A stretch of DNA of 64,000 nucleotides from Rahnella variigena (lineage in GTDB: Bacteria > Pseudomonadota > Gammaproteobacteria > Enterobacterales > Enterobacteriaceae). Position numbers and translations under genes: made by a program. The stretch is from NCBI RefSeq assembly GCF_003610915.1, contig NZ_NSDJ01000001.1, positions 2,356,001 through 2,420,000 of the forward strand, written 5' to 3'. This document shows positions 36,609 to 64,000 of this stretch, one piece after another. The notes under the pieces are model-generated. The model was not told the origin of the DNA and did no database searches. It saw nothing but the letters and a program-made list of their open reading frames with translations. Every line of letters starts with the position of its first letter. The stretch's first letter is position 1.

Positions 36609-37711
36609 ATATCATTTTCCCGTTGCAGAGGGATTATAAAGTGCAATTTAGGGCTTGTTAAATGAGAAGTATTATCAATTAAAGCTTTGCATTTATGATG
36701 ACTTACAAAATGAAGGGGTTATTGATATGTTAATTGATATCCATGGAAGGATAATGTTCCCTTATCAGATATTTTGCGCGTGGAATAATTATTCGTATCG
36801 GTAAACGTAAAAATCGGCTGATGGAGCGTTATCCCTGAAATTTCTTGATATATAGTGCATTGTGCTGATTGCGCTGTCGTAAGGTCCTTGCCAGTCATGC
36901 CGTCGCAGCACCCATTGCGCGCCCGTTTTCCCAGAGCACGATAATGATGATTTGAGATTCCGATCACGGTATTTAATAATAAATTTTTATAACGATATTT
37001 TTTATATGAATAAGTGATTTTTAAAAGTTTGCGCAAGTGTTATACCAATTTAACCAACTCGCAAACTTTAATTCATTATAATGTCAAAAACGAGATGATA
37101 AGAAAACTGTATTAGAAGAGCGAGGGATTTAGAATTGAAACGCCGAAGGCGTTGAGTGATGTTATGTATTATCGGCTACACGCCGAAGGCGCACAGTTTA
37201 GGTGCATTTATTGCGGTCTGCGTTTTGTTTTGCACCATTTTATCCTTCCCTGGCGTAATTGATTATTGCATAACCAGTCATATTGTCTGGCTATGTCTTT
37301 AACCGGTTGCCCGTTCTGTTGTACAAGTGAGCACCTTGCCCGACAGACCCGCTGTCACCCGAACCTGACCTGACCCGGGGTGTTGCTTTACCACGCCTTA
37401 TCAGGCCATCAGGAAAAGGTTTTGGCCGATCTTGACAATAAAAATTCAAATAAAGGTGTGTTTTACGCTTACTGTTCTGCATTAAATGATCAATAATCAA
37501 AAACAGGTCGTTATTGTTTTGTTTGATATGCAGGTGAAACTGCAAAGCAGAAAAAAGCATGTCTATCAACATATTTCAGCATAACTGAACACGAAGTGCC
37601 TTTAACCGGCTCAAATATGTGCGACATGTCCATCACTGATTAAAAATGGCTTGCCATCGAATTCAGAGTATGTGATAACGCATCTGGGTAAAACGAGGTA
37701 CAGTTCTGTAT
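36609..37711. other. 1.1-kb region without a convincing gene upstream of yobF
   Basis: The first 500 bases are AT-rich. Two minus-strand frames (36719-37036 and 37291-37572) lack ribosome sites, and their products look non-native. Two identical short hairpins lie at 37140-37191. The right third should contain the yobF-cspC promoter and leader. The mix of compositions suggests decayed inserted DNA. Confidence 0.5.
37140..37191. repeat. Two copies of a CGCCGAAGGCG hairpin, 40 bp apart
   Basis: ACGCCGAAGGCG occurs at 37140 and again at 37180, each able to fold CGCC/GGCG around GAA. The exact 40-bp spacing and the loop identity suggest a short interspersed or REP-like unit. Only this pair was noticed. 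Confidence 0.5.
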
Positions 37712-37828
37712 ATGTGTGGCATTTTCAGTATAGAAGTTCTGAGTAAAGACGTTCACGTTGAATACCGCTTCTCTGCCGATTCTAATCTTAGTGCCTCAAG
37801 CAGTAACGACTCTAGTTTGTCTATGTAA
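37712..37828 (+). CDS. yobF: YobF, small heat-induced protein
   Basis: This 38-codon gene encodes [20 protein letters not shown] and a Ser-rich tail ending SSLSM. E. coli YobF begins [20 protein letters not shown], so identity is clear, though the tail is diverged and the product ends about nine residues earlier. It lies 41 bp upstream of cspC, as in E. coli where the two are co-transcribed. Confidence 0.92.
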
Positions 37829-37869
37829 CGCCTACGGGCGGTTTAAACAATCCAAAGGAAATACTCAAG

Positions 37870-38079
37870 ATGGCAAAGATCAAAGGTCAAGTTAAGTGGT
37901 TCAACGAGTCTAAAGGTTTCGGTTTCATTACTCCTGCTGACGGTAGCAAAGACGTGTTCGTACACTTCTCTGCAATCCAGGGTAACGGCTTCAAAACTCT
38001 GGCTGAAGGCCAGAACGTAGAGTTCGAAATCCAAGACGGCCAGAAAGGCCCGTCAGCAGTTAACGTAACTGCAATCTAA
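37870..38079 (+). CDS. cspC: CspC, cold-shock-family RNA chaperone
   Basis: CspC is a constitutive RNA-binding protein that stabilises stress transcripts such as rpoS mRNA. The 69-residue sequence [20 protein letters not shown], with RNP2 DVFVHF, differs from E. coli CspC by about one residue as I recall it (Ser for Ala near the end). The ribosome site is AAAGGAAA. A terminator follows. Confidence 0.97.
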
Positions 38080-38093
38080 GCAGCGTCAGCTGT

Positions 38094-38121
38094 AAAAAAA
38101 CCCGCCAAGGCGGGTTTTTTT
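38094..38121 (+). terminator. Intrinsic terminator after cspC
   Basis: AAACCCGCC and GGCGGGTTT arms around AA run into seven T. Confidence 0.92.
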
Positions 38122-38163
38122 GTGTCTTTTTTCAGCATGTTGAGCTGTTATTGCAAGATCACT

Positions 38164-61863: not shown

Positions 61864-62199
61864 ATGAGGAAAACACTGCTAGCCTGCGTGCTGCTTACCT
61901 TATCTGCCAGCAGTTTTGCCGCACCGCAACTGGAGACCATCAGCCGCCTGCAATACGGTAAGGACTGGGCCTTCACCCGTGAAGAAGTCATGCTGCAATG
62001 CCGTCCTGGCAATGCGCTGTATGTGATTAACGACAGTACGCTGGCGCAATATCCTCTGAATGACGTGGCAAAAGAGCAGGTTAAAAACCATCAGGTTCAG
62101 GCGGTGCCCCTGGAGAAAATCTGGCTGGATGACCCGCAGAATCCCGGACAAAAAATGAGTCTGACACCTTTTATCGCCAAAGCTGAATCGCTCTGCTGA
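61864..62199 (+). CDS. yebY: YebY, DUF2511 periplasmic protein
   Basis: The 111-residue precursor has a clear signal peptide ([19 protein letters not shown]) and the family core [26 protein letters not shown] with two cysteines (the second at the end, AESLC). It is the last gene of yobA-yebZ-yebY, as in E. coli, and probably acts with them in periplasmic copper or heme handling. Confidence 0.92.
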
Positions 62200-62341
62200 A
62201 GCGCCGTGCTGCGGGTAAATGGCTGATGTTAATCCCATGTTTTGCGTATGTTGTCACACAATGAAAATAATGCCTCATTGTTATTATCACTATGTTTCAA
62301 ACTGAGTGGAAATTAGTCATCTGTCGTCTATTCTTTAAGTT

Positions 62342-62445
62342 GTACGGCTTAACCGCCTGCATTAATGCCAACTTTTAGCGCACGGCTCTCTCCCAAGAGC
62401 CATTTCCCTAGACCGAATATAGGAATCGTATTCGGTCTTTTTTTT
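62342..62445 (+). ncRNA. sdsR: SdsR (RyeB) Hfq-dependent sRNA
   Basis: The segment CCTGCATTAATGCCAACTTT, then GCGCACGGCTCTCTCCCAAG and the terminator hairpin GACCGAATAT...GTATTCGGTC plus eight T are almost identical to E. coli/Salmonella SdsR as I remember it. SdsR is a sigma-S-dependent sRNA that represses ompD, mutS and others, and it pairs with the antisense RNA RyeA/SraC made from the opposite strand. A -10-like TATTCT lies at 62329-62334, which gives a start near 62341. As in E. coli it lies beside yebY. The 5' end is approximate. Confidence 0.93.
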
Positions 62446-62513
62446 GACTGTTTTTCAAAACAATCACTTATAGTAAAAACAATAACTTAGGCTGTTTTCA
62501 CTTACCTTCAATG

Positions 62514-63569
62514 TTACTCATTTGGATTCTCCATCGCCATTTTATCGCCACTGATTTGAGCCAGCGGATTCAGGTGGATAGCGTCTTCCAGGTGATCCGG
62601 GGCAAAGTGCGCGTATCGCATAGTGACCCGGATATCTGAGTGCCCGAGGATGCGCTGCAGCACGATGATGTTGCCACCGGCCATCATAAAGTGACTGGCG
62701 AAGGTATGGCGTAGGACGTGCGTCATCTGACCTTCCGGCAGTTCGATGCCGGCCAGCCTGATCACCCGATAAAACTGCTTATAGCAGGGTGAGAAGGGAG
62801 TGCCTTTACGGGCGATCAATTCGTCATAGAGAGGGCGGGCGAGGGGAACGGTACGGTTCTTTTTACCTTTGGTATTGATGAAGGTGAGTTTATAGGGAGA
62901 AATCTGCGAGCTTTTGATTTTTGCCGCCTCGTTCCAGCGTGCGCCGGTTGAAAGGCAGACTTTAACGATAAGCGTTAATTCGTCATTTCCATGCTGCTCA
63001 CATGCTGCCATGAGCTGCAGAATTTGTTCCTGAGTCAGCCATGCCATTTCACGTTCCGGCTGGTCGAACTCGCGGATGTTTTCCAGCGGGTTAGGTAACG
63101 ACCATTCCCCCAGGCGTTTCAGCTCATTGAACACCGCCCGCAGAAAAGCATGTTCACAATTCACCGTACCGGTGGAAACTTTACGGGTTGCCAGGCTGGT
63201 ACTGTAGCCGTTATCAATTTCACCTCTCAGTCGCTGATCACGATAGTGTGCCCAGTCCTTCGGTGTGATCATGCTGGCTATCGGGTCACCCATTCCCGCG
63301 CTGATAATCCTTAGTTTGCCCAGACGTCCCTTTTTATCATTCAGAGAGCAGCCGTGCAGGCTGTACCAGAGTTCGACCAGTTCGCTCAGCTTCCGCCGGT
63401 CTTCCTTCTCGCCCAGCCAAGGTTTGTTATTCGCCTGATCCATGGTGTAAGTCTCAAAGGCTAAGGCTTCACCCTTGGAATCAAACTGCCTACGGCATCG
63501 CTTACCTTCCCGCCCGTTCGGGTAACACTCACATAACCATTTACCGGTAGACAGCTTTCTCACACTCAT
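62514..63569 (-). CDS. int: Phage-type tyrosine integrase (P2-like)
   Basis: The 351-residue protein has an N-terminal arm-binding domain (SVRKLSTGKWLCECYPNGR), a core-binding domain, and the catalytic domain with Arg211 in STGARWNEA, Lys near 234-237 in NTKGKKNRT, His284/Arg287 in THVLRHTF, His310 in LGHSD and Tyr319 in TMRYAHF. This matches P2/186-type phage integrases. The ATG at 63569 is five bases after AGGAGG; a GTG one codon earlier is too close to it. A LexA-type box lies about 30 bp upstream. Confidence 0.93.
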   Translation of the reverse strand: MSVRKLSTGKWLCECYPNGREGKRCRRQFDSKGEALAFETYTMDQANNKPWLGEKEDRRKLSELVELWYSLHGCSLNDKKGRLGKLRIISAGMGDPIASMITPKDWAHYRDQRLRGEIDNGYSTSLATRKVSTGTVNCEHAFLRAVFNELKRLGEWSLPNPLENIREFDQPEREMAWLTQEQILQLMAACEQHGNDELTLIVKVCLSTGARWNEAAKIKSSQISPYKLTFINTKGKKNRTVPLARPLYDELIARKGTPFSPCYKQFYRVIRLAGIELPEGQMTHVLRHTFASHFMMAGGNIIVLQRILGHSDIRVTMRYAHFAPDHLEDAIHLNPLAQISGDKMAMENPNE

Positions 63570-63598
63570 CACATCCTCCTTTTTGAGAATATGAATTT

Positions 63599-63618
63599 TA
63601 CTGTATATAAAACCAGTG
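63599..63618. promoter_or_regulatory. LexA (SOS) box beside the integrase gene
   Basis: TACTGTATATAAAACCAGTG keeps the CTG...CAG core with the right 10-base spacing and an AT centre, very like the umuDC operator. It lies about 30 bp upstream of int on one side and 160 bp before the next plus-strand gene. It implies that excision or another element function is tied to DNA damage. Confidence 0.7.
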
Positions 63619-63776
63619 TAAATGTTTGATTTATTCAGTCGTATACATGCATAGTCAGCACATAGACAGTTTGTCTAAGCAAGTAACTTTTGGAATGGGA
63701 TCAGGAGAAACGGTGAAATTTTGATTTCAGATTGTTAAGATTGCTCTTAACAGTTTGCTCTCACTATAAGGACTTA

Positions 63777-64000
63777 ATGATGAAGTTTGTTCTGGGATTT
63801 GCCGCTTTAGTGCTTCCGTTTGCCGCGAGTGCTGCGTTTATTAACCCAATGGAATTCGATGGTTCCGAAGCGCAAAAACAAGAAGTAATAGAATACATCA
63901 AGGCGAGGGTGAAGGCCGATTACTGTGATGGTGCCGTTGATATGTGCCAGCCAACAACGCTTCGTATGATGGAAAAGCAAAATCTGACCGCTTTTAAGAA
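63777..64000 (+). CDS. Exported protein of unknown function in the integrated element (3' partial)
   Basis: The frame starts ATG ATG after ATAAGGA and runs to the window edge. The product begins with a signal peptide (KFVLGFAALVLPFAASA) followed by AFINPMEFDGSEAQKQEVIE and two cysteines (YCDGAVDMCQ), suggesting a periplasmic or outer-membrane-bound protein with a disulfide. I do not recognise it. Lying beside the integrase and pointing away from it, it may be cargo of the element rather than a phage structural gene. Confidence 0.7.
   Translation, partial: MMKFVLGFAALVLPFAASAAFINPMEFDGSEAQKQEVIEYIKARVKADYCDGAVDMCQPTTLRMMEKQNLTAFK

Follow-up and report, generated by a model that had tools for sequence, protein, structure and literature searches.

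Phage integration into the end of a small RNA gene raises the question of what becomes of the RNA, of its terminator, and of the antisense RNA whose promoter lies on the invaded side. The sdsR (ryeB) locus of Rahnella variigena raises this question, as a tyrosine integrase gene adjoins it. The window, that is, the whole analysed stretch of 64,000 nucleotides, corresponds to C1:2356001-2420000 of a 5.5-Mb genome in two contigs. The features of the locus are collected in Table 1.

Table 1. Features of the sdsR locus and of the adjacent element (window positions, unless the contig is given).
Feature	Position	Strand	Basis
yebY (DUF2511), host gene left of sdsR	61864..62199	+	PF10709, 134.2 bits
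RyeA/SraC family match, largely the reverse complement of sdsR	62303..62448	-	RF00101, 136.8 bits
sdsR (RyeB) small RNA	62345..62444	+	RF00111, 110 bits (gathering score 38)
Terminator hairpin of sdsR	62410-62438		followed by a T-run
Left copy (attL) of the 19-bp core GTATTCGGTCTTTTTTTTG	62428..62446	+	two plus-strand copies in 58 kb
Two copies of AACAATNACTTA, candidate integrase arm sites	62459-62470, 62478-62489	+	similar sequence seen by eye in other P2-type loci
P2-type tyrosine integrase, 352 aa, 3' end facing sdsR	62514..63572	-	ORF and domain matches
Small ORF in the prophage, 137 aa when read beyond the window	63732..64000	+	ORF list
Right copy of the 19-bp core GTATTCGGTCTTTTTTTTG	C1:2455376-2455394	+	exact match to the left copy

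The insertion left sdsR and its terminator whole: the RF00111 match is full-length, and both the hairpin and the T-run are present, as the initial annotation had stated. The yebY gene adjoins sdsR in E. coli K-12 as well. The families RF00101 and RF00111 form one clan (CL00105), so the RyeA/SraC match provides no independent evidence for a RyeA transcript, and we rejected it as proof of RyeA in Rahnella. A match to the cspA thermoregulator RNA was also found in the window (37706-38123, RF01766, 148.5 bits).

The integrase contains domains PF24624 and PF00589 and matches phrog_1 (integrase). Its stop codon lies approximately 69 bases beyond sdsR; the distance of 68 bases given in the initial annotation is thus about right, but it leads to the stop codon and not to the start of the gene. 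The core GTATTCGGTCTTTTTTTTG consists of the 3' arm of the sdsR terminator, the T-run and one G. In the 58 kb read, it occurs exactly on the plus strand at C1:2418428 (window 62428) and C1:2455376, 36,948 bp apart. Since these are the only two plus-strand copies of the 19-mer in this region, chance was rejected as an explanation of the far repeat; it is the repeat of the sdsR 3' end for which the initial annotation had proposed to search at the far junction. The repeated part comprises only the 3' arm and the T-run, and the whole hairpin is not duplicated. The core copy of the element restores this part of the terminator, in agreement with the earlier suggestion that the element rebuilds it. 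The integrase presumably recombines in or beside the 19-bp core, and the paired AACAATNACTTA repeats may serve as its arm sites.

The element continues beyond the window, and all ten of its proteins tested have matches to phage families (tail, tape measure, sheath, tail fibre, capsid, terminase, portal, replication nickase, repressor, PAPS-reductase type). Related peduovirus records are about 70% identical to it in DNA. A small DNA-binding regulator (NF007241) is, we assume, an Ogr homologue. Judged by its sequence, the element is a P2-like prophage (Peduoviridae) of 36.9 kb in the Rahnella genome. The small ORF at the window end has no family match in NCBIfam or Pfam. Just past the window end, near the integrase, there is a FosA-type fosfomycin-resistance glutathione transferase gene (C1:2420544-2420945, L005:8544-8945; NF000496, 198.6 bits at a cut-off of 180). 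At the right end of the prophage, beside attR, we observed a type I-A retron (C1:2451510-2454809; L383:110-847, L007:244-1878, L007:1865-2809) with all components present: the reverse transcriptase and PtuA-like ATPase (PADLOC RT_I-A, ATPase_I-A), the PtuB/HNH protein (PtuB/HNH_I-A) and the msr RNA (RF00170, 81.3 bits, L007:2955-3021). The second contig encodes another P2-type integrase (C2:713340-714332, L008:5341-6333), with 52.5% identity over 339 aa.

Each of 14 Rahnella genomes has one SdsR match, and the state of the adjacent DNA varies. An intact 352-aa integrase follows sdsR in five genomes including that of the window, the other four proteins being 95-99% identical to it. Three genomes contain fragments of the P2-type integrase, two have the lambdoid type (one frame of 361 aa and one fragment), and two retain only decayed integrase ends (L016, L020). 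No integrase trace is detectable after sdsR in the remaining two (L009 and R. ecdela L018). Thus, in the comparison with relatives that the initial annotation had called for, the integrase is not present in all Rahnella, and it is accompanied by phage genes. As the empty site we take the R. ecdela locus, which aligns to the right flank of the prophage at 85% over 1378 bp. Immediately beyond the far junction, on its right, a profile of P2-type integrase ends matches the DNA at 33.1 bits, compared to 9.6 for the best of 3320 shuffles. This flank is the scar left by an older P2-type integrase, and hence the site has been used at least twice.

We then considered the locus across the GTDB family of the window in a draw of 149 genomes from 148 genera. 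An SdsR match was found in 87 of them, 86 being above the cut-off, and all 86 loci were examined. Loci from other Rahnella, E. coli K-12 and 80 of 118 named loci were added; the named loci are among the matches listed for one exact pattern and are not a random sample. Altogether 179 loci were examined, 159 of them non-redundant. An integrase or its remnant follows sdsR in 119 of the 159 (partly named loci among the matches listed). Integrase frames of at least 300 aa were observed in 27 loci (20 lambdoid, 7 P2-type), shorter fragments in 33 (27 lambdoid, 6 P2-type), and a fossil alone in 59, leaving 40 with no trace. The 86-genome survey by itself yields 10 long frames, 19 fragments, 24 fossils and 33 loci without trace. 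No phmmer integrase match lies on the plus strand in any of the 159 loci. The remaining 38 named loci were held out, and 28 of these, again among the matches listed, were usable; 25 have an integrase or remnant and three have none, and all 13 phmmer matches lie on the minus strand. As controls, no integrase trace was found in 30 Spot 42 loci (30 of the loci found) or in 44 upstream flanks of sdsR.

Among the matches listed, long integrase frames occur in Serratia, Yersinia, Rouxiella, Buttiauxella, Citrobacter, Kluyvera, Enterobacter, Lelliottia, Phytobacter and Escherichia, and P2-type integrases at sdsR were found in Buttiauxella and Serratia as well. An integrase match at most 2 kb downstream of the core is present in 78 of 120 IMG/VR contigs among the matches listed; the best match of each has the same orientation, and 17 of the 78 have no sdsR upstream. 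In E. coli, 227 of 5426 genomes contain at least 80% of an sdsR-integrase-excisionase stretch; for the K-12 type locus, with 80% or more of it in a single place, the number is 5139. On these sequence data the sdsR terminator is an order-wide landing site used repeatedly, in one orientation, by at least two integrase families, in agreement with the use across the order that the initial annotation had suggested.

Insertion at ryeA/ryeB of Salmonella was published in 2008 (Balbontin et al., via PMC7380047). According to the available part of PMC7380047, phage phiW104 of S. enterica DT104 has its insertion point in the final 23 bp of ryeB; the 5' part of ryeA is changed, ryeA transcription being lowered and that of ryeB raised. 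The initial annotation was therefore right to describe the Salmonella locus as an insertion hot spot. The two prophages share the sRNA locus and its end, and in both the insertion replaces the DNA where RyeA begins; they differ in host genus, in the phage and in the core, which in Rahnella comprises 19 bp plus near-matches. The site being already known, the Rahnella prophage is a further member. The lowered ryeA transcription in the phiW104 lysogen suggests that phages do not always fully replace the promoter.

The integrases of the PSP3 group (Eganvirus, P2-like) are 62-64% identical to that of the window, and PSP3 and Midge have an ogr-type gene after int. However, in PSP3, SW9, Midge and 613R3 there is no sdsR core beside int, and by eye a different terminator-like hairpin is found there. 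The assumption that integrases of this group always act at sdsR was rejected, as the core is absent beside int in five phage records. Terminator-like hairpins with T-runs were seen by eye after the integrase stop codon in records L346-L350, and thus terminators may be frequent sites of integration for this integrase group. The PSP3-group phages carry a DUF2511 gene (the yebY family) directly before int, yet no sdsR core; it lies at L347:443-781 in PSP3 and at the same place in L346 and L348, L349 having an unnamed ORF of the same size. This gene is possibly a trace of former residence at sdsR. On the lambdoid side, the closest well-known phage to the integrase of one Escherichia sdsR locus (L152) is of the HK022 type, a distant relative with 40.8% identity. 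The HK022 integration site presumably lies elsewhere. The nearest record to the L152 integrase is Flyfo siphovirus Tbat2_3 (72.7%).

The consequences for RyeA can be followed in E. coli K-12, where SdsR and RyeA of this same locus form a toxin-antitoxin pair (PMC6610125). The annotated RyeA starts 38 nt past sdsR, that is, beyond the core, so the earlier remark that RyeA may start or end in foreign DNA holds as a general point. In the available part of PMC6610125, the ryeA promoter is sigma-70 dependent, and the primer used to mutate it changes five bases. These bases of the -10 region map to 46-51 nt past sdsR, within a relic that spans 45-110 nt past sdsR and resembles the 3' end of a lambdoid integrase gene.

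Several profiles were used to recognize such fossils. With a protein profile of 13 lambdoid integrase C-termini, 21 further loci score higher than any of 1980 shuffled sequences; K-12 is not one of them. A DNA profile constructed from seven intact integrase ends produces a graded series, with all matches above 0 bits on the minus strand. K-12 reaches 7.9 bits with this profile, a value that one of 2000 shuffles of its own sequence equals and that the highest of 3300 pooled shuffles (12.1 bits) exceeds. The score rises to 17.4 bits when 25 loci of at least 24 bits are added, and is 20.3 bits when the training set consists of intact ends and strong fossils (22 sequences); none of 2000 own shuffles is as high in either case. 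A longer DNA profile extends the integrase homology to 44-146 nt before the stop codon in 17 fossils scoring above 15 bits, and has no match in seven of 31 fossils, including K-12.

The conservation within the fossils is uneven. Of the 31 fossils that have no integrase frame, all but L066 contain CTGGAC and TGNTAT at constant spacing (30 of 31), and 23 contain the full TGNTATGGTT. Agreement with an intact end is 99% for CTGGAC, 95% for TATGGTT and 72% of cells for the 17 bases after CTGGAC, with mean entropies of 0.07, 0.23 and 1.37 bits, respectively (rank test p = 1e-5); shared ancestry of the fossils may account for part of this uniformity. A profile picks up sequences close to the consensus more readily, a bias that does not single out the promoter positions. 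In six held-out fossils, two of which have identical blocks, CTGGAC, TG and TATGGTT are invariant and the spacer is variable. The TG, a free base and TATGGT form an extended -10 pattern; CTGGAC precedes the hexamer by some 20 bases, an unusual distance for a -35 box. In six of the seven intact ends of the class, the motif is encoded by the last residues EYVMV or EYDMV. Thus the E. coli ryeA promoter looks like part of a decayed integrase 3' end. Selection may have caused the conservation of CTGGAC and TGNTAT, and the relics outside E. coli may function as promoters too. Next to the relic in K-12 lies pphA (L107:1314-1970), described as similar to the phage lambda phosphatase (PMC6610125, available part); the lost element may have brought this gene along.

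Candidate antisense promoters of another kind were found in elements whose integrase stop codon lies about 133 nt past sdsR. This type-B motif, TGTTAA plus TG[GA]TATAA between the integrase and sdsR, was also observed in E. coli E2865, together with an integrase, an excisionase, recT and recE, and in loci of Klebsiella, Raoultella and Citrobacter without an integrase. Of 165 loci, 86 have TGNTAT on the antisense strand 40-125 nt past sdsR and 18 have it there on the other strand, compared to a mean of 16.3 and a maximum of 30 in 200 shuffle rounds. Of the 119 loci with an integrase trace, 74 contain a type-A or type-B motif, versus three of the 40 without; this association is partly circular, as fossils are recognized partly by the same bases. 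Among the held-out loci the motifs occur in 16 of 25 with a trace and in two of three without, both of the latter being type B. At intact genes, which are free of the circularity, the motif was found in 10 of 20 lambdoid loci and in none of seven P2-type loci. Some prophages at sdsR bring an antisense promoter-like motif of their own.

In the Rahnella window, no antisense sigma-70-like, extended -10, type-A or type-B site was recognized, though such scans are weak, and thus RyeA is only putative there. One possibility, which we regard as somewhat less probable than even, is that antisense RNA over sdsR arises in the lysogen by read-through from the integrase gene or from a phage promoter that escaped recognition. 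The integrase indeed reads toward sdsR, and the scan of the window found no terminator-like site on the minus strand between its stop codon and sdsR. On the other hand, integrase genes are often weakly expressed in lysogens, and the negative promoter scans, for what they are worth, also speak against this possibility. It may also be supposed that the window contains an ordinary prophage at a known hot spot and offers nothing beyond Balbontin et al. 2008. The use of the last 23 bp of ryeB by phiW104 in S. enterica DT104 (PMC7380047, available part) is in line with this. However, the argument covers the insertion, whereas an integrase origin of the ryeA promoter was not found in the literature searched, Balbontin et al. 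2008 excepted, and we doubt that the case ends there.

Two other explanations concern the likeness between the ryeA promoter and integrase ends. The promoter could be old host sequence, from which the integrases beside sdsR captured their 3' ends. Integrating phages commonly share host sequence next to attP, and homology alone gives no direction. However, the bases in common code for a C-terminus that is usual in lambdoid integrases, including the K-Y-L-D block, whose tyrosine we take to be catalytic; the same block occurs in integrases whose DNA in this region differs greatly; and the strong fossils have stop codons and shortened ends. This makes capture from the host highly improbable. Convergence on a promoter motif would also produce such a likeness, and it is true that K-12 alone is weak against the intact integrases and that the strongest bases are promoter elements. 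Against it, a graded series in constant register connects K-12 with the intact genes, the best intact pair shares 25 of 33 block bases (34 of 57 with upstream bases), and the held-out loci have the same pattern; convergence thus seems unlikely. It is probable, in our estimate, that the RyeA antitoxin promoter of E. coli and its relatives is a domesticated piece of an integrase gene, kept after the rest had decayed, and that phage turnover rewrote the control of SdsR.

Taken as a whole, the account in which phages integrate at the sdsR terminator and decay to relics, one of which became the ryeA promoter in E. coli, is in our opinion very likely. It draws on the att cores, the gene content of the prophage, the differences between relatives, repeated use of the site, strand bias, fossils and conserved promoter elements. 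Points against it are the failure of some profiles to recover K-12 or to set it above shuffles, the intact loci that lack the motif, the type-B motif in two held-out loci without a trace, and the lowered ryeA in the phiW104 lysogen. The phage attP, carrying the 3' half of the SdsR terminator, would recombine via the integrase with the same sequence of the host. The phage copy would then provide the terminator 3' arm and T-run, so that SdsR keeps both its sequence and its terminator, while the DNA past sdsR, the seat of the ryeA promoter in E. coli, would become phage DNA. Phages would insert in one orientation, with the integrase 3' end beside sdsR, and what remains of a dead integration would be the final integrase codons. 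In this scheme the C-terminal codons (E-Y-V/D-M-V-stop) would already contain an extended -10 element pointing back over sdsR; in E. coli and its relatives such a relic would have turned into the RyeA promoter and persisted as the remainder decayed. Phages arriving later would exchange the antisense promoter present for a different one.

Phage insertion at this locus is known from Salmonella; the integrase origin of the ryeA promoter is apparently new. No link between this promoter and an integrase was found in the open-licence literature searched, which did not cover Balbontin et al. 2008, including the available parts of PMC6610125, PMC7380047, PMC5495878, PMC5575072 and PMC7577506; the origin of the promoter is not discussed in the available part of the first of these. 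That the site is order-wide, with an integrase or its remnant at 119 of 159 loci, points to where RyeA may have come from; this RNA is the antisense partner of an sRNA that is widely conserved among enterobacteria. It would follow that RyeA is absent, or driven by another promoter, in lineages that lack an integrase trace, and that in a lysogen it depends on the resident phage. If this is true, the 3' coding sequence of a phage gene gave rise to the promoter of a regulatory RNA, and successive phages at the site have altered how a conserved stress sRNA is controlled.
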